This document shows, one piece after another, positions 9,590-32,900 of a DNA stretch of 64,000 nt; positions within the stretch are counted from its first letter, which is position 1, and each line of letters starts with the position of its first letter. This DNA is from Coffea arabica (lineage: Eukaryota > Streptophyta > Magnoliopsida > Gentianales > Rubiaceae): positions 15,873,557 through 15,937,556 of the forward strand of contig NC_092320.1 in NCBI RefSeq assembly GCF_036785885.1. The letters are read 5' to 3'. The notes below the pieces were generated by a model, which made no database searches, was not told the DNA's origin, and was given only the letters and a program-made list of their open reading frames with translations. The position numbers and the translations under genes were made by a program.

Positions 9590-9904
9590 TTAGTTTTAGG
9601 GCAAATTATCCAATTGACCCTTGAACTCTTTGTCTAAGTAAAAATAACTCTTTGTCTAAGTAAAAATAAGCCCCTCATCTATTTTTTGCTGACTTTAAGC
9701 CCTCGAACTTGTAAAATTGGACACCCGTGACCCTTTTAGCCAGTTTCTCCGGTTTTGCAACCGGAAAGTGAATTCACACGAATGCCAGTATGCTTTTAAG
9801 AAAGGCATTTTTGTCAAAAGATTCAAAACTCGCGCGATGCTAGGGTTTCAGTACCCCCTCTTGCGATCTCTTCCACACACAGTAGAACACGGTAGCTAAT
9901 ATTC

Positions 9905-10050
9905 TGGGTGAAGAATTGGGGGCTGATGCCGGGCTTGGCCTTCTCCAACAAGCTGATCTCGCGGGACGACGGGTTTCACTGTGACTTCGCATGCCTGTTG
10001 TACGGGCTGCTGAGGGCGAAGCTGAGCGAGGAGATTTTGATCTCAGAGAT
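9905..10050 (+). pseudogene. Captured fragment of ribonucleotide reductase small subunit (R2)
   Basis: Reading TTC TGG GTG AAG at 9903 gives [22 protein letters not shown], then [22 protein letters not shown]. This matches the conserved R2 segment [34 protein letters not shown], which contributes radical-site and core helices of the enzyme that makes deoxyribonucleotides. Only about 45-48 residues of a roughly 330-aa protein are present, with no start, no diiron ligand set and no stop of its own, so it cannot be an enzyme. After SEE the frame runs into unrelated sequence, where TTCACTGTGACTTCGC (9975-9990) is repeated at 10058-10073, probably a template switch or fill-in during capture. Confidence 0.85.
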
Positions 10051-10795
10051 GGAGGGCTTCACTGTGACTTCGCCAATGGAGGCCATGGTCATATAAATAG
10101 CTGGCTTTTCTACCAGAGACACCGACTTGCTTGAGCTGCTGAGTAGATAGACCCAGCACATTGTCGGGAAGAACTGCAGTCTCGCCACCGCAGAATGCTA
10201 CAAAGCGATTGTAGATTGAGGTGCTTGCTTTGTAGGCGAGTTGCTGATAGAGAATGCTCTTGGTGAGGGCAAGGAATGGGGAGTGGTGAGACTCAAATGC
10301 CGGAGGCTGGTGGGTATCGATCAGGGTAGCAAGTAAAGGGTCAACAACGCGGAGGTGGTGGAGAGCGGCGTTGATTTCACCATCGGGCGACAGGGGTTTG
10401 ATGATCTGGGGCAGAACCCTAGCTGATTGGACAGCACTACGCCTCCGATTCTTGGGCGTAGATGCCGTGGGTGTGGAAACTGTGGTGGAAGTAACAGCAG
10501 TGCTGGTCGACGCGGAGGTGGAGGTGATGGTAGTGGTGGTGGTAGAGGAGGAGGAAGCAGTGGTCGGAATAGGTATGGCAGAAGGGGAGGAGGAAGAATC
10601 AGTAATTTGTTGGGCTTTGGCCTCGGAAGTCTGCAAGGTGGGCATGGAGGAGGAGTTAACGACGGTGAGAACAACGGGGGTGGTGGCAATGGTGGAAGTA
10701 GGGTTAGATGACAGCTTTCGGATTTTTTGAGGTCGAATAGGTATTTTGGAAGGATTGGAGGGCTTCTGGGAAACGTCGGCATTGATGGTGTCCAT
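10043..10795 (-). pseudogene. Captured 5' part of an AlkA-like DNA-3-methyladenine glycosylase gene, ORF still open
   Basis: 250-aa ORF from the ATG at 10795 (MDTINADVSQKPSNPSKIP). It has a Ser/Thr-rich N-terminus, then LSPDGEINAALHHLRVVDPL, PPAFESHHSPFLALTKSILY, QQLAYKASTSIYNRFVAFCG and VLGLSTQQLKQVGVSGRKAS. This is the N-terminal half of the HhH-GPD glycosylases that excise alkylated bases (Arabidopsis At1g75230/At1g19480 type, from memory). Homology ends near YLYDH (about 10100); the last 18 or so residues are filler, some read antisense to the DNA next to the R2 fragment. The helix-hairpin-helix and catalytic Asp are missing, so no glycosylase activity is expected. Host 5' UTR sequence (10796-10913) seems to have been captured too. 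Functional only if transcribed, perhaps as regulatory RNA; the parent gene is not in the window. Confidence 0.88.
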
Positions 10796-11119
10796 GGGGG
10801 AGGAGACGAATGGGAGGGAGAGGGAGAGGTTGCGGGAGAGAGGAGAGGAGAGGGGACGGCATCGGTGGAGAAGTCAATGAGAAAAGAGGAAAGAGGAGTT
10901 GTTCCTTTTTTGCTTGACAAAAATGCCCTTCTTAAAAGCATACTGGCATTCGTGTGAATTCACTTTCCGGTTGCAAAACCGGAAAAACTGGCTAAAAGGG
11001 TCACGGGTGTCCAATTTTACAAGTTCGAGGGTTTAAAGTCAGCAAAAAATAGATGAGAGGCTTATTTTTACTTAGACAAAGAGTTCAAGAGCCAATTGAA
11101 TAATTTGCCCTTAGTTTTA

Positions 11120-16565: not shown

Positions 16566-17084
16566 CTAGATCTTGTCGAGCTTTTCTGCTTTGACAACAG
16601 GATTAGCTTTAGCTATTGCATCTTGAGCAGCAGCGCGATAGTCAAATGGACACTCATGCTTATCAGAATAACGATGCACGGCGCAGAAAAGATTTCCACA
16701 TCTGCAGTTAAAACCAGTTAAACCCACACGTTTGCGGCAAGTGCTGCACCTGTTTGGGCCCTCTTTTACCTTCGCTTCTGAGCCCTGCCCCACTAAAATC
16801 TCAGGGGATGCCTTAGTCGAAACAACTTCAAAGTCCGCTGACACAGCTTGTACAGCCAAAGCACCAGTAACAACAGGCTCTTTCTCTTTACTACTTGAAC
16901 TGCCATTGACGATGTTCTCAATCGATGAAGCAGCAAGTTTGGCTTGCTCCTGCTTCAAGATCATCTCCTTGTGGCACTTTGAACACATGTTCATGGTTGC
17001 TGCACTACCAAAAAACCCACAATTGTTAATGCAAAGAATTGGACCTTCCGGAGCTTGGCAGCCTGTCTCTTCTGAAGACTCCAT
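16566..17084 (-). CDS. A20/AN1 zinc-finger stress-associated protein (SAP), copy 1
   Basis: 172 aa, intronless coding region. N-terminal A20 zinc finger ([20 protein letters not shown], Cys near 18, 22, 34, 37), a variable linker about 45-110, then a C-terminal AN1 finger ([20 protein letters not shown] to [13 protein letters not shown], about 111-150) and the usual VKAEKLDKI end. Plant SAPs of this class (AtSAP2/OsSAP8 group) bind ubiquitin and act in abiotic-stress responses in nucleus and cytoplasm; that role is family knowledge. The start at 17084 is the conserved [18 protein letters not shown]. The leader is spliced in the 5' UTR (AG at 17098-17097, 12 nt before the ATG). A paralogue lies at 29424-29942, differing mainly in the linker. 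Confidence 0.96.
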
Positions 17085-19454: not shown

Positions 19455-19674
19455 GGGAAATTTGTCAAATTGGTCCCTAACATTTATCAAAAACACTTTT
19501 TTAGTTCCTAACATATAAAATCAGCCAAAATGATCCTTCACATTTAAATTATGAGCCAATTTGGTCATATTGTTCGTTTTTGCTCATTTTTCCGGCTAAA
19601 AATAGCACGCCCTCCTCACGTGGTCATATTTTTAGGGGCAAAATCGAAAAACACATTTCATTATCGGTTGAAAG
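19455..19674. repeat. Left TIR of the two-gene MULE
   Basis: 220 bp, inverted partner at 25382-25601. It contains CACGTGGTCATATTTTTAGG, an E-box/G-box-like CACGTG core, and ends AATCGAAAAACACATTTCAT, then TATCGGTTGAAAG. TIRs of MULEs usually hold the promoter and transposase-binding sites. Confidence 0.93.
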
Positions 19675-20151
19675 TAAAAGGATAAGGGACCACCACCAAA
19701 ATACACATTTCACCTTTGGCCCTCAAATTATAGTTTCAAGAAACCCTAATTGCATCCCCGACTTAACAAGCATAACTTGAAAATGTACTGCCGATGATGA
19801 CGACGACAAACCTGTAGGGTGTGATTGAGAAATGATCGAAGGTTTGGTCAGAAAATCGTGAAGAAAATCTTCGAAAAGATGCAGAATGAATCGGAAAAAT
19901 GGGACTTCACAATGGGTTACGGTAAGTTTTTTTTTTTACCAATGTGGTTAGCAATTGTTGACGAATCTTGCTTAGGACTATATTTTATGTTAATTAATTG
20001 AAAATTGTTCATTATTTTACTTAGTTTTGCTGTGGTCCCCAAATTTTTTTTTAGTTTTGTTGTGGTCCCCAATTTTTATTATGAAAGGCTCCACATTTCT
20101 GTTATGGTTCCAAAGTAATTGTCGTTTTAATGGCTGACAGGGGCCAATGAA

Positions 20152-23100
20152 ATGCATTTTTCTATTCGTATACACTTTGGAGATGAACTTAGAGATACAG
20201 GAAATAGAGACTATGTAGGGGGTTCGGTTGACATAGTCGATGGTTGTAACCCAAAAAAATGGTCTCTGTGTAAGTTGGACGAAATAGCTAATAAACTTGG
20301 ATTTGAGCCTTATATAGTGCGTTACTACTACCTGATTCCTGATAGGAATATGGCAGATGGATTAGTGTATATGTTGCAAGAGGATGATGTTGCTGAATTG
20401 GCTAAATTAGGGAGTACGTATGAGTTAGTTGATGTGTTCTTCATTCATCGAAGAACATATAATTTGCTTCATTTTGCTGTTGATGAAGAAGGAAGAAGGC
20501 ATGATAGTAATAGAAATAATGAAGAATCTGTACGTGTGACCACACCAGAGAATGTTCAAGAAGAATCTGTACATGTGGCCACACTAACACCAGCTACTAA
20601 TGGTGGTTTTCAAGACGCTAACATGGATGGAGGAATCCTTCACGTACTAGTAAGAGGATGAAACAGATTGCGAAGAAAAGAATTTCACATGCAAAAAGAT
20701 TGAAAATGCAGCAGAGGAGAAAGGATGTTGGCCATCAAGATGTTGCTGCTCAGAGTGGTGTTAGTGGCAGGAGTGGATCATACCAAAGTGCATCTCATGT
20801 TGCTGAACATGAGAGTGGAGGAACTACAGAAAGTCATCCTGCTGATCATGAAACTCCTGATGCTGCTGAATATGAGACTGCTGAGGCTGTAGAAACTGAT
20901 GTAGGTAAACATGCAACTGATGGAGCTACAGAAATTGATGGTAATAAAAATGAAAGACATGGCAGAAGCAGACAAGGAAGAAGAGCACCAACTAAGTCAA
21001 GAAAGACATCAAATAGAAAGACTGAAGGTAAAAAGTCATTCAAAAAAAATAAGGAGCAGATCATAGAGGATATTGTCTCAAGTGATCCCGAGATTTTGTA
21101 TGATAGCGAATATGCCATAATTGATGAGGAAGAGCTAATGAAATCTATTAGTGAAATACCTCCAGATTGGGCTAATGTTGCTAAACAGTTCAAGACAGCA
21201 AAAAAAGGTAAAGAAAAGGTACAGGAAACTGCTGTTAATAAAGAAGATAATGAGTGCAGCATGGAGAAATCAGATAATTCATCACATGATGGGCTGCACA
21301 ACAATGAGAGTTCTGAAAATGAATGAGGGAGTAAAGATGTGGACAAGAAAAAGTTTAGGGTATTCAATCCTGCAACAGAGATGGATGACCCAAAGCTTGA
21401 ACTTGGGTTATTATTTAAGTGTAAGATTGACTTTATCAATGCTGCAAAATCACATGGAGTGAAGTATGAAAGGAAAATCAGGTTTAAGAAAAATGATTCA
21501 AACAGATGCAAAGCCATATGTAGAGGCAAGAGATGCATGTGGAACACATATTGCTCAATTAGGAGTGATAAAGTGACATTCCAAAGCAAAAGCATGCTGC
21601 TGACTCACATTTGTGGTAGGACAACCTATCATGGCCTGACAAGTGTGACATATTTGGCCAACAAGTATTTGGAGGACATTAGGCTGAACCCAAATTTTAA
21701 TGTAGGTGATTTTATGACAAAGGTCCACAAGGACTTGGGAGTTAGTATCACACCTAATGTGAGGTATAAGGTAAGAGCAAAAGCTAAAGAGATGATACAT
21801 GGTGATGTCATGTTCCAGTACAGCAAACTTTGGAGCTACTGTGAAGAACTTCAAAAAGCAAATCCTGACTCTAATGTGTTCATGACTACAACTGAGAATA
21901 ATGAGGGTGATGATAAGTTTCAAAGATTCTATGTGTGTCTAGATGGTTGTAAAAGAGGGTTCTTGCAGGGTTGTAGATATGTTGTAGGTCTTGATGGATG
22001 TCACTTAAGAGGCTGTCACAAGGGAGTTCTTCTCACAGTCGTTGGTATTGATCCAAATGATCAATTATTTTCGATAGTATATGCTGTAGTTGAGACTGAA
22101 AATAAGAACTCTTGAAAATGGTTTGTAGAAGAGTTAAATGGTGACCTTGAAATTATTGATCAAAGCATTTGGACATTTATAACCGACAAGCAAAAGGTAA
22201 TATATAACTAATTTTATCAGCCTTGTTGTTATGATAATACTTAGTGACAGTAATATAGGTTTGAATTTTTATTTCATTTATACAGGGGCTAGTTCAAGCT
22301 ATTCAAGAGGTACTGCCAGGGGTTGAGCATCGCATGTGTGTGCGGCACATGTATAATAATTTCAAAAAATAACATCCAGGCCTAGCTCTCAAGGAAAGGA
22401 TATGGGTTGCAGCACGAGCTTCTTATAGGGACGGATTTGCTGGATTGATGAAGTCACTAAAAGAGGTTGATGAAGGTGCTTACAAAAGAAGTGGACAAGA
22501 TCACATTTTAGAACAAGTGTAAAATGTGATATTTTGTTAAATAATCTGTGTGAAAGTTTTAACTTCACAATCCTTGATGCTAGGCAGAAACCAATTCTTG
22601 ATATATTGGAGACCATTAGATTTTACTTAATGGTTAGGATAGAAAAAAAGAGGGAATGGATAAAAAAATACACTGGGGAGATATGTCCTAAAATTCTGAA
22701 AAAGTTAGAGAAAAATAAGCTTGCTGCAAATGACTGCATTCCTAGCCACTCCAGGGACTGGAAATTTGAAGTTAGGTGCATGTATGGTGATAGGTATACT
22801 GTGGACCTTATTAGTAGATGTTGTAGTTGTAGAAAGTGGGACCTTAATGGCATTCCTTGTGCACATGCCATTGCTGTAATTTGTGACACTGGAGAGGAAC
22901 CTGAGAAGTTTGTAAATAATTGCTACTCCAAAGAAGCTTACATGAGGGCATATGAACCCATGATAAGCCCAATGAATGCTGAGCACATGTGGAAAAATTC
23001 TGACATGCCGCCCGTGCTACTTCCTGAGAACATAAAACTTCCTGGTAGACCACGAAAGGCTAAACGAAGGGAGTTAGATGAACCAACATCAGGTAAAAAG

Positions 23101-23608
23101 CAAAATAAGCAGCAGCAAAAGCTGTCTAGAATTGGGCAGATGGTATATAAGTGTCGAAAATGTAACAAGACTGGCCACAATAGTAGGAAGTGTTGAAGCC
23201 ATAAACAAAATGCCTCTACTGAGACTGATTCACATGGATTTGTTAGACCTACACCTCCAGTTCCTAAGTCAAATACTCAGATGTCTAAGGAACTCATGGT
23301 AGATGCACGATTGGGAAGTCAACAATCTATATCAAACTATTCTATTGCTGCAACTATTCCAGTGAGTATCATAAACATCTTTTGCTTGTCAAATACTCAT
23401 ATTTTACCTTTATGTTGTCTAACAAGCCTTCGTTAAAATTGTCAAGGTGGAGAATATTGGGAAGTACAAGTGCTCTATTTGCCACCAATATGGTCACATC
23501 AAAGGCAGGTGCACTTCCACTGTTGCAGAGCTTTCTCAAGGGCAGGCACATGAATCTTCAAAAATTAGTGAAGCAAAAAAAAAATTGAAGTGCTGGTGGC
23601 TTGTTTAA
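20152..23608 (+). pseudogene. MULE transposase (mudrA-like), broken by at least six lesions
   Basis: Order: PB1-like N-terminal domain (20152-20650; YVGGSVDIVDG, YYYLIPDRNMADGL), a charged linker, a MuDR-type DNA-binding region (LELGLLFKCKIDFINAAKSH), the DDE MULE domain, a SWIM zinc finger (CCSCRKWDLNGIPCAH, about 22818-22868), then two CCHC knuckles (CRKCNKTGHNSRKC ending at 23193; CSICHQYGHIKGRC in the last exon, 23447-23608). Catalytic candidates survive as codons: D in GLDGCHL (21993), D in FITDKQKG (before a phase-0 intron at 22197-22285), E in NNLCESFN. Lesions: frameshift near 20650; stops at 21324-21326, 22113-22115 (TGG to TGA in KNSWKWF), 22370-22372 and 23194-23196; frameshift near 22490. 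It would cut and join TIRs in the nucleus if intact; it cannot now. Confidence 0.93.
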
Positions 23609-24826
23609 GCATCTTTTTGTGGCTTTAGCTACAACTTTTTATGTTGTATTTTGCTTTTGGGATATTATAGTTCATGTATTACGACTTGAGCTAAGACTTT
23701 AGCACTGTCGTAAATAGCATCTTGGCTATTAGTTTTTGATGCAAATATTTTGCTGTTAGTTTTTGGCACTGCTGTAAAAAGCATCTTGGCTTCTTATCTT
23801 TTGTGGAACTGAGTTTGGCCAAGTTTCTTTTCCCTCTATTAAGTATTTTGGACAGGTATAATTTTGTTTTTGGCTAGTCTAAAGCAAGTAAATAATTTCT
23901 GTGTGCATGATATGAGAGATCAATTTTGGTGCCTCCTTAGCCTCTGATGTTTTGAAAAATTTTGCATACTGTATTAGGTTCAGCAAGCCTGGCTCCATAG
24001 ATCAAGGAGATGGACAAGATGTTACAATCCTGCTGTATCTAATCTTATTTTTTATGTTTGTACTATTATGTGGTTCCAATATCTGGTTGATATGATACAT
24101 TCATGGGATCACCTGAAACAGTTGGCAAGAGGACTTCCATGCATGTTGCTGCAGTATCTAGATATTTGCACTATTGCTGCCAAAATGGGATCCTTCAGAA
24201 GTTGATAGTACATTTTTCTTTGTTGTTAGGACTGGACCAGTAGCAGAAATGATCGATAACCATGTAGCTCTTTAAGATTTGACCAGCTGTAACAATTTTA
24301 TTTAGATCATATTGATACTTTTATCTTAGTTTAGTAAACATACATTTGGTTGTAAAGTTTCCATTAACAATATCTTGTAGGTTTTGTTTCTGGGATTTCA
24401 GTTTCCATTCACATAATAGATGTAACATTTCATTGTCATTTACTTCTATTGTTGTGTGAATCCATCCATTCTTATCAATTGTTGATGTTTAAATTTGAGT
24501 GTATCTGCAGCTTATTGTCTTCAAATTCAATGTTAAGAGACAAAGCCATTCATCATCTTCACTTTCACATTAGCAAATTTCCCTTTCCGACAATCAATTT
24601 ACCAAAAGGCAGCTTTGCATTCATAATTGTAAATGGTACAAACATAAGCCTTTCCTATTACACAATAATTACCAAAAGTGCTGCTGTTACTATTACACAA
24701 CCACTAACAAAAGTGCAGCTAGTACAAAAAGCCTCCTCATATTTTGGATACTGCTACATGCTCTCGGATTCACATTCTTCGATAAAGCCAGACAGAATTA
24801 AAACAACATGTTAGACCCATCAATAA
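23609..24826. other. Non-coding spacer between the two MULE genes
   Basis: About 1.2 kb between the convergent transposase and GRF genes, presumably holding both 3' UTRs. No further ORF with domain-like sequence was seen. TAGCACTGTCGTAAATAGCA and TTGGCACTGCTGTAAAAAGC (near 23700 and 23764) form a short diverged repeat. Confidence 0.5.
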
Positions 24827-25275
24827 CTATCTTTCAATTTTTGTTTGATTCCAACTTATTAACAACAGCAAAGTGCACATCCAAGAGGCAACCAAAGCAG
24901 CCCAAAACAATTTCTCTCTTCGGATTCTCTGTTCTTGATCAGCTTGTAGCCGGTTGATTGATTTTAATAAACCAGATATTATTGACACAGATCTACTACA
25001 TATTGGTGGATCATACCACTTAAAGTAGCCACAAGCACGAGTTACCTAAAATGCATGAAGAACATCAGATATCAAGAAACCTGAAACCTGAAACTAACCT
25101 GAACATCAGTTACCAAATTTTAACCCCACATCCCAAACCCAAACTGACCTGAAATTTCAAGAAAACTTACTTCATAATTTGGACAACCATAGAATCTTCT
25201 CCCTGGATTTGCAGGTTTCCAAGAAGTCACAATGATGGGTTCCTTTTCACAAAGACATCGCTCGTTTGGATTCAT
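24827..25275 (-). CDS. MULE-borne GRF zinc-finger protein with C-terminal membrane helix, two exons
   Basis: Exon 1 25275-25171 (35 codons), intron 25170-25046 (perfect GTAAGT donor, TTTTAG acceptor, phase 0), exon 2 25045-24827, 107 aa. Exon 1 reads MNPNERCLCEKEPIIVTSWK then PANPGRRFYGCPNYE, exon 2 starts VTRACGYFKWYDPPICSRS. This is a GRF-type zinc finger (Gly-Arg-Phe as GRRFYGC; likely zinc ligands Cys7, Cys9, Cys31, Cys40; FKWYD after the last Cys). A short charged, probably helical segment (LLKSINRLQADQEQRIRREK) and one hydrophobic helix (FWAALVASWMCTLLLLISW) follow. GRF fingers in other proteins bind single-stranded nucleic acid; the role here is unknown. No lesion is visible although the neighbouring transposase is dead. 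It lies inside the right end of the MULE, reading inward. Each exon is too short for a usual ORF cutoff. Confidence 0.85.
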
Positions 25276-25381
25276 TTTACTCTCCAAGGGTCAGCTTCTT
25301 CTTCCCAATTTCTTACTGCTGTGTTTTCCCTCTTCAATTTCAATGGGTTAGTGAGGCGATTAGATGAAGGAAAGATGGCTT

Positions 25382-25601
25382 CTTTCAACCGGTAATGAAA
25401 TGTGTTTTTCGGTTTTGTCCCTAAAAATATGACCACGTGAGGGGGGAGTGCTATTTTTGGCCGGAGAAATGAGCGAAAATGAGCAATAGGACCAAATTGG
25501 CTCATAATTTAAATGTAAAGAATCATTTTAGCTGATTTTATATGTTAGGGACTAAAAAAGTATTTTTGATAAATGTTAGGGACCAATTTGGCAAATTTTT
25601 C
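25382..25601. repeat. Right TIR of the two-gene MULE
   Basis: Inverted copy of 19455-19674. It lies about 107 bp upstream of the GRF gene start, so it is the likely promoter of that gene, as the left TIR would be for the transposase. Confidence 0.93.
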
Positions 25602-29423: not shown

Positions 29424-29942
29424 TTAGATCTTATCCAGCTTTTCTGCTTTGACAACAGGATTTGCTCTGGCTATTGCATCCCGAGCAGCATTGCGATAGT
29501 CAAATGGGCACTCATGCTTATCAGAATAGCGATGCACAGCACAGAAAAGATTTCCACATCTGCAGTTAAAACCAGTTAAACCCACACGTTTGTGGCAAGT
29601 GGTGCACCTGTTTGGCCCCTCTTTCACCTTCACCTCTGAGCCCTGCCCAGCTAAAACATTAATCGATGCTTGAGTAGAAACTGCTTCCAAGTCCACTGGC
29701 ATAGCCTGTATAGGCAAAGCACCAGTAGCCACAGGCCCCTTCCCATTGTTAGTTGAGCTGCCATTGACAATATTCTCAATTGATGAAGCTGCAAGCTTGG
29801 CTTGCTCCTGCTTCAAGATCATCTCTTTGTGGCACTTAGAACACATATTCATGGTCGCTGCACTACCAAAAAATCCACAATTGTTAATGCAAAGAATTGG
29901 CCCTTCTGGAGCTTGGCAGCCTGTCTCTTTTGAGGATTCCAT
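29424..29942 (-). CDS. A20/AN1 zinc-finger stress-associated protein (SAP), copy 2
   Basis: 172 aa, the same length as copy 1. A20 finger ([20 protein letters not shown]) and AN1 finger ([20 protein letters not shown] to [13 protein letters not shown]) are essentially unchanged; most substitutions are in the linker ([20 protein letters not shown] against copy 1). The reading frame extends upstream of the ATG, but that part is intron: the true start is [15 protein letters not shown] at 29942, with an AG acceptor 12 nt before it (29956-29955), the same position as in copy 1. Both copies look functional, so this is a retained duplicate pair. The family binds ubiquitin and tunes stress responses; the individual roles cannot be told from sequence. 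Confidence 0.96.
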
Positions 29943-29954
29943 GAGGTAAATATC

Positions 29955-32900
29955 CTGAGGAAGAACAAAATAGGAAGTAAACCAAATGATTTGAGTAAAT
30001 GAGAACTTAAGGCATACATTTCTAGAAAACACATAGCCATAGCTCTATACTGATTATTGAATGTTGCAGTGCTCTAACTAGTTGCATCTCTAGGCAATTT
30101 TCAAAAACTGCATTGCAAATGAAGCCTACTGAATTCACCAAAATGCAGAAGTATACTTGACATACTAACTAACTCACCAAAGACAAAGGATACATAACAC
30201 AGTAAAATTGCTTAATATACTAAATCGGCAAAGACCTCCGGATATGTAGGGCTTCAAGACAACTGAAACGTGTTCTACATCTAATAGACCAAGAGAAAAA
30301 TCTGAAGATCTCCCAAGAACATACACAGTCATCTTAACATTATGCACAAGGAAAACATAAAGAAAGCATATCTGTATTAAGTATCAGAGAAGTGACCAAA
30401 TTCATCTCTTAAACTTAAGAATTTGTACTACAGCAGTTCCCAACTATGTTGCAGTTCAATCTAATCAGTACAAAATTCAGGGAAGACAGCAAAATATGAC
30501 AGCATGCTCAAATTACATAGTCACATAACAAGGTTTTTATGCTGTTTTAAGTTTCAACTATGTTTTCTCATTTTACTACTTCAATAAAGCATAAACCCTT
30601 TTATTACTTTTCCACTAATGCCCTTACCCCCATGTTGCTACTTTTGCATAACATGCCATTAATATCCCATTATCTACCAATTCGAGTCAGCTCCCCCTTA
30701 AACTTCCCCATCACCTTTACTAATTCTTTTTTTTTTTGGGCTTTTGTCAAATTGCACATTATGCCTTTTTCACAAGTCAGACAATTGAGTTCCAAAATGG
30801 TGCTGGACTGGAAGCATATTTTTCTTCAATTATTCCAGACTCATTTAAAAGTTTTAATTGTCTTAGACTTGCTTTAGCTCAGTCTTCTATCAGATAGCTA
30901 GGCCTTCCTAGTTGTCTAGCTATATATTCTGCAAAAATATTTGGGTTTCCCAATTTTGTAATTGCTGTTCTATTTTTAATTATATCTTCCAGCCTAAGAA
31001 TTAGGGCTTAAGTTAAATTAGGACTTTGAAACAGGAAAGGAGTCTATTAAAACTTGATTCAGTTCTATTTCAGTTTAGTTTTAGCTGAACATTTTCAGAG
31101 GATTTCAGAAAGTTTCGTCAACATTTTTAAATCTATCAACAGCTATTGCACCCAACCTCACCCCCTTCCCCACCCCCCCCAAAAAAAAAGGCTAATTTTC
31201 ACTGACAATTTGGCATAATTCTTTTCCAAGAACAAATCTTTCCAGACCATCCTTCTACTGCACAACATGTCACAAACCAACCATCTTACACAAGGATGAT
31301 ATACAACAAACTAACAAATACTGATATTTGAAAGTTAAAAGAAAAGCAATCTACAAAGCTCAAAATTCCAAGAGTAGTCTATAGAATTTTTTCCGACAGA
31401 TACCGAACTTGGAGAATGTGAGTAGACCATTACGATCCCGCTTTCTTGCACATTGTGTGCCCACTTGACAGAATTCCATTCATAATCAGCTCAATTATGA
31501 GACGGATTATGACAATATATTTTGTTAGATACAAGTCAAGGCTACAAGAACAGAAAAGTTACCCATCAACTATCTAATGATCAAAACAGACAGCAAAGAT
31601 CATGTGTCCACAAAACCACAACATCCGCCAGATACCCCCCACCATCTTTTCCCCACAAGGCCAAAAAAGAGGGCAATTTCATGAATAGCTCCTTCAAGGG
31701 CTTGCGATAAAGGATAAGATGTTTGACCCAATTGCCACAAACCCATATGGATAAAAAATCACAATAGCAGCAAAGCTTGAAAAACAATGTCAAGAAGACA
31801 AGGCTCCTCATTTGAGTGTCCCATCATCAGTGAAGTGTAAGATTTTTCTAAATCTATCTTGACCATCATGAAGACAAGCACAAGCAAATGCAGATGGCTC
31901 TTGGCAAGAGACAAGTGCCTCGTAGAAGATATAATATCAATGAAAAGTTGGAGAGGATTTTGTGAGATCCTACAACAAAACTTGCTTTAGGCAGCTAGAG
32001 TTTGACCTGGTGTGTGTCAGAGACTGTTTAGGAATGCTTTCTAAAGCTGGAGGTTGTTCAATATAAAGGGCAAAGAATCTGCTGCCCAGGAGACAGACCA
32101 TTCTACAATGTATGGATAGTGAACAAAAGCGCCTTTCAGGTAAAGTCACAGGAGAAAAGTCATCCAAACAATATCCTTTCTAACAAGTTATGTTGAACAA
32201 ACAAGAATTATCCATCAAATCATTCTTAGCTTTCAGAGAGGATTTGCTTCACCACAGATGGATGCAATACCTGCTATAAACAGCAGGGAACCCATCCGCG
32301 TCCTCAATAAAATTTGCCTTCTTTTCACCCCTCCTCCCAGGGGTGGTTGAGTTGTAAACTACCACCTCACGCATCTAATTGCAAGAAAAATCTAAAGTGT
32401 TCTTGATGAGGAGGCCCCTTAGATTAGTGAGGTATACCCCATACATGACCCCCTGCCCCTGCATTTCATGTCATATGAATCTATGAGGACTCCCTAGCTA
32501 TGAATCTCCCTATTATGTGTAATGCCACTTCAACACTAACACCAATTATCCTCAAGTCAAGATCGAGTGCGAGATCATAAATCAAGAAGGCCACCATAGA
32601 AGCCTAAAGGTTACTTAATTGAATACTTTGATGATTGAAAACCCAACAGAATTTAGACTGAATATTGTCCACAGTCTACCAACAGTTGAAAACAGCTAAA
32701 TAAAGTTAAGCTGAAGGTACACTAAAGATACACTAAGCATCATTTAAAATATCCAACTATACAAATTTAAATTACGCTAAGAACACAGCTTGGCAGAAGT
32801 TCAACAGGATACAGACAGTCAAATTACATCAAACTAGCAAATAATCCACAAAGATACTTAACCACACAGCCCCCACCCTAAACATAGTAGAAAATCTTTC

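Follow-up and report, generated by a model that had tools for sequence, protein, structure and literature searches.

A chimeric Pack-MULE of Coffea arabica with pieces of three parent genes and a probable history of layered capture

The Pack-MULEs described in rice, Arabidopsis, and tomato have long inverted arms, a 9-bp target duplication, host gene fragments, and G+C-rich cargo, with no transposase seen. The Coffea arabica element analyzed here is alike in these respects. It differs in that pieces of three parents are present in one 1.5-kb element and in that one genome contains the parent genes together with the sister and final forms of a single lineage, so that the joints, and the probable sequence of captures and deletions, can be read directly. 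Gene pick-up by such elements has been termed perplexing, and animal Pack-TIRs, for which gap-filling and FoSTeST models are described, show the same short joint microhomology and template switching as proposed here (PMC8277862, in the part of its text available). In contrast to those elements, ours is Mutator-like and not animal, and several captures occur in one lineage. CACTA elements that carry genes (Pack-CACTA, Tgm-Express) likewise have multi-gene cargo, according to extracts of PMC1947982 and PMC8903248; they belong to another superfamily, whereas the present element has a 9-bp duplication and arms of ~200 bp. Literature searches pairing Pack-MULEs with ribonucleotide reductase or with DNA glycosylase matched only one review (PMC5745447), and a search pairing them with “sequential acquisition” had no match.

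The element lies at positions 9599-11110 of a 64-kb window, the whole stretch of DNA that was analyzed (C11:15873557-15937556). It is 1,512 bp in length, Mutator-like, and non-autonomous. The original prediction, made from the letters of the window, had described a chimeric Pack-MULE with a perfect 9-bp target duplication, terminal inverted repeats of about 200 bp, and pieces of two unrelated host genes in opposite orientation. Most of this description holds: the duplications are identical, the arms pair as inverted repeats with 190 of 197 sites identical once a 22-bp tandem duplication on the left side is set aside, both the parent genes and further copies occur in the same genome, and the ribonucleotide reductase (R2) and glycosylase pieces are recognized by Pfam on opposite strands. 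The gene count has to be amended. The R2 and glycosylase pieces stand, but a third is present, the leader of a dynamin-type gene. The element is an ordinary Pack-MULE, a chimera of fragments from three parents, and its history is well resolved. Its features are collected in Table 1.

Table 1. Features of the Pack-MULE and its borders, in positions of the window
Feature	Positions	Strand	Remarks
Left target-site duplication	9590-9598	.	TTAGTTTTA; perfect match to 11111-11119
Left terminal inverted repeat	9599-9817	+	contains 22-bp tandem duplication
Dynamin-type gene leader sequence	9813-9899	+	93% to L056, 92% to L057
Ribonucleotide reductase R2 fragment	9899-10034	+	Pfam Ribonuc_red_sm, E 9.5e-10
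Linker, not R2	10035-10086	.	common to R2 sister family
250-aa open frame	10043-10795	-	ATG from element, glycosylase codons, then 14 antisense linker codons
AlkA-like HhH-GPD glycosylase fragment	10087-10788	-	Pfam E 2.1e-6
Overlapping upstream frame, 206 aa	10321-10941	-	starts inside right arm, out of frame with 250-aa frame
Right subterminal sequence	10789-10913	.	found in 19/19 aligned members
Right terminal inverted repeat	10914-11110	-	
Right target-site duplication	11111-11119	.	TTAGTTTTA, 9 bp

All seven mismatches between the arms are transitions. At substitution rates of 2.5e-9 to 1.3e-8 per site per year, this divergence would mean ~1.4 to 7.4 million years, assuming that the arms were identical at insertion. 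The tandem duplication in the left arm (9624-9645 and 9646-9667) is private to this copy: of the 19 aligned copies, the remaining 18 do not have it. The interior consists mostly of host pieces and subterminal sequence, and its parts have a G+C content of 0.48-0.60, compared with 0.30 and 0.35 in the flanks. Pfam recognized no transposase in three frames of the element. It shows the following features of a Pack-MULE: a duplication of 9-11 bp, long arms (50 bp or more in the authors' own search in PMC3310237, as far as its extract goes), no transposase, host fragments with parents in the same genome, and mobility as a unit. A 30-base pattern from the arms had no match among viral contigs.

The genome (1.198 Gb, 131 contigs), whose gene content suggests a plant nuclear genome, was queried with the element, with a sister element, and with a sister interior. 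Scoring covered 40 of 388, 40 of 397, and 40 of 52 candidates, respectively, such that all counts are lower bounds. The search recovered both what the prediction had asked for in copies with the same terminal repeats and a wider set of relatives. At least two further full chimeras, on C21 and C7, are 98.6% identical over 1,465 bases, and at least one reduced copy without R2 is present (C14a). At least nine elements with the same ends carry dynamin and R2 pieces; two of these, on C2, are identical in their flanks, as if a segment with a single insertion had been duplicated. At least three sister elements with the same ends carry glycosyltransferase (UGT) and glycosylase pieces, and a third family of at least three has an interior that Pfam did not recognize in the one member scanned. 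Together with the window copy, these make up the 19 aligned members, and one member each of the dynamin+R2, UGT+glycosylase, and third-family groups was scanned with Pfam. The right subterminal sequence carries a deletion in C14a, and in the R2 family it contains a block of 46 additional bases. Target duplications are perfect at 9-11 bp in 16 of the 19 and have one mismatch in the other three, with four of the 16 perfect ones resting on AT-rich repeats or shifted ends. The three full chimeras are flanked by three different duplications (TATTTTTTA on C21, TTTGTTTTA on C7, and TTAGTTTTA in the window), which show that the copies moved to new sites.

Fourteen further loci have related arms. A perfect 9-bp duplication surrounds ten of them; two have one mismatch, one has no duplication, and in one no second arm was found. 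For six types, a single frame apiece was scanned, and five were recognized, as cytidine deaminase, LRR, P450, purine transporter, and DUF761. The P450 frame comes from L037, the locus at which no duplication is seen, and this locus is perhaps not an element. The other cargo-bearing types are represented by L035 (with L031, L032, and L036 alike), L033 (with L038 and L042), L040 (with L041), and L034; only the first-named of each was scanned, and these account for the cytidine deaminase, LRR, purine-transporter, and DUF761 cargos.

Parent genes were also found in the same genome, as the prediction required: for R2 on C14, for the glycosylase on C13 and C14, and for the dynamin-type gene on C3 and C4. 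The likely R2 parent (C14:1889053-1889292) lies inside a 381-residue stop-to-stop frame and matches the R2 piece at 126 of 136 bases. There are six amino-acid changes in 45 residues, two of which (KR to NW) are also found in the sister element on C22; another replaces Glu by Asp in DEGLH, a residue that we take to be a metal ligand. In the linker, positions 10054-10073 are a second copy of R2 bases 9971-9990 at 19 of 20 bases. None of 1000 shuffles of the linker region reached this match (best 15), and the repeat is also present in the R2 sister family; it is possibly a trace of template slippage during capture.

The likely glycosylase parents are C13:6691259-6691960 (98.3%) and C14:8490626-8491324 (97.7%), compared with element positions 489-1190. 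Both parent frames stay open through the 150 bases read beyond the capture point, and the first ATG in the stretch read is ~38 codons before it. Because the parent frames continue past both ends of the piece, both capture ends lie inside coding sequence. A comparison with exon boundaries had been proposed, and for R2 as well as for the glycosylase the breaks fall within open coding sequence and not at exon borders. The HhH-GPD match stops at profile position 58 of 108, leaving the second half of the domain missing. A search of viral contigs with the glycosylase frame gave 83 pattern stretches, none of them confirmed, and in plasmids a single record matched, a glycosylase of bacterial type with 38% identity across 71% of the 117-aa query.

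The dynamin-type gene, possibly DRP3, has its likely parents at C4:19000218-19000667 and C3:19087755-19088204. The window copy keeps 87 of its bases, all of them 5' of the first ATG in the parent frame. A longer piece is present in the C22 sister (Dynamin_N, E 1.3e-16), where dynamin-type GTPase and R2 pieces are fused in one 177-residue open stretch (L015, C22:61063246-61064569); in the C4a and C3 elements, a stop interrupts this frame where the R2 piece begins. For the UGT piece, C3 and C4 contain at least six additional matches (96-98%) that may be its parents. Near-identical pairs of parent genes are found on C3/C4 (dynamin-type, UGT) and C13/C14 (glycosylase), and this pairing hints at whole-genome or large segmental duplication.

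Layered capture in one Mutator-like lineage very probably explains the chimera. Judging from the sister copies, an ancestor would have gained the 5' part of a dynamin-type gene together with a segment from the middle of R2. The joints suggest that ~700 bp of glycosylase coding sequence then replaced ~22 bp of the dynamin+R2 interior. The R2-family interior and the glycosylase parent overlap by GG (2 bp) at the left joint and by GATGG (5 bp) at the right joint, which would fit break repair with template switching. The joint between glycosylase and element on the right is the same in seven of seven carriers, and one glycosylase substitution occurs in all seven and in neither parent; these shared characters point to a single glycosylase capture, which probably went into an element already carrying dynamin and R2.

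Subsequent deletions would have produced the present forms. C14a retains dynamin bases missing in the window copy, and the window copy retains R2 missing in C14a. As a result of this reciprocal retention, neither derives from the other, and we infer an ancestor that carried dynamin, R2, and glycosylase. One descendant would have lost most of the dynamin piece and the 5' part of R2, giving rise to the window, C21, and C7 copies, while a second, separate deletion would have removed nearly all of dynamin and R2 on the way to C14a. Copies then moved to new sites, with transposase presumably supplied in trans. Among the candidates scored (40 of 388 and 40 of 397), none combined full-length versions of the three pieces. 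Our confidence in layered capture is held down because the backbone and glycosylase trees do not resolve key groups. The backbone tree, which covers 18 of the 19 rows, gives support of 100 for the R2 family, 97 for the third family, and 95 for the UGT family and places C14a with the last of these (78), with the order among the families unsupported and the deciding forks at 57-78. In the glycosylase tree, the seven element copies do not form one group apart from the parents. At two glycosylase sites, the window copy agrees with C14a and not with C21 and C7. A plain capture of two genes directly from their parents was rejected, given that the R2 piece and linker are common to nine dynamin+R2 elements and a dynamin leader remains.

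The main competitor is an exchange between two Pack-MULEs, in which a glycosylase-bearing element would have kept its own arms and acquired the dynamin/R2 block of an R2-family element through conversion that began at the inner edge of the shared arm. At diagnostic sites in the three chimeras, the arms are of the UGT/third-family type and not the R2 type in 23 of 24 and 15 of 15 cells; inside, at positions 220-302, six of nine cells are of the R2 type and three are other. The UGT/third-family type at 1-219 switches to the R2-family type from ~237, where the left arm has its inner edge, and exchange between elements would also give such a switch. It would agree, too, with the grouping of C14a with the UGT family in the arms (support 78) and with exchange points that lie within a few bases of each other across families. 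Set against this, divergence of the R2 block from the R2 family (0.047-0.074) resembles that of the arms (0.068 and 0.078), which favours common descent over recent exchange, and the GATGG overlap at the right joint argues that the target of capture already looked like an R2-family interior. We regard the exchange as unlikely compared with layered capture. A broader proposal, that the arm family is a system of exchangeable cassettes with a fixed frame (left ~236 bp, right ~320 bp) and interiors swapped repeatedly at nearly the same two inner points, is similarly doubtful. If it were true, successive break repairs would assemble, shorten, and reassemble multi-gene chimeras much more frequently than expected from single captures.

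A merger of two adjacent elements that moved as one and then lost their inner arms, as proposed for other Pack-TYPE elements in the extract of PMC8903248, is highly improbable even with R2-bearing and glycosylase-bearing sisters with like arms to hand, as the joint between R2 and glycosylase has a 2-bp overlap and no arm remnant and parent sequence reaches it directly.

As a gene, the chimera has no demonstrated function. The glycosylase frame had been credited with its own ATG, but the start codon is element sequence and the parent's first ATG is ~38 codons upstream; the last 14 codons are the linker beside R2, read antisense. The frame is 250 aa long in the window, C21, and C7 copies, 257 aa with another tail in C5a, and shortened to 129 aa in C8a and C19 and 30 aa in C14a. 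It is very unlikely that the 250-aa frame works as a truncated or regulatory protein, or that antisense RNA of the element controls the parents. The frame is open in three of seven carriers, but it would be expected to stay open with a chance of ~0.70 without selection and is broken in three of seven related copies, two of which share one stop. Openness is therefore uninformative as a sign of function. Ka/Ks to the C13 parent, with few changes each, is 0.73 for the window, 0.36 for C21 and C7 (four replacement and four silent changes), 0.41 for C14a, 0.64 for C8a and C19, and 1.01 for C5a; it is 2.02 between the window and the C14 parent and 0.92 between the parents, again on few changes. The window and C21 frames differ by four replacement and no silent changes. 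These values give no clear signal of selection, and those below 0.5 would allow weak constraint. The suggestion that the open frame hints at function is not supported.

In favour of a function, a transcript from either arm would by its geometry be antisense to one of the two parents, and in other plants promoters in the arms drive Pack-MULE interiors (PMC3310237, in extract). Against a functional protein, the second, catalytic half of the HhH-GPD domain is absent and three ATGs precede the start codon, two inside the right arm and one opening the 206-aa overlapping frame. Any transcript or small RNA would most likely be a by-product of the element. The pairing of DNA synthesis with repair had also been thought meaningful. 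Among the sister cargos are pieces of dynamin, glycosyltransferase, LRR, and DUF761 genes, and, judged from these, the theme is probably a coincidence; cytidine deaminase and purine-transporter pieces also touch nucleotides.

Other features were observed in the window. Rfam at gathering thresholds gave no match in the 64 kb. A second Mutator-like element at 19455-25601 (6,147 bp) has a perfect 9-bp duplication (AAGTAATAA) and arms of ~217 bp that are 92% complementary, with pieces of a MuDR-type transposase (DBD_Tnp_Mut, MULE, SWIM) spread over separate frames. It is probably not a partner of the Pack-MULE, as its arms show no clear similarity to those of the latter (best match 20 bases, E 0.02). 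Two similar minus-strand genes, at 16566-17084 and 29424-30032, belong to a longer duplication and are separated by ~12.9 kb. The former is an A20/AN1 zinc-finger protein by Pfam and the latter resembles it in translation.
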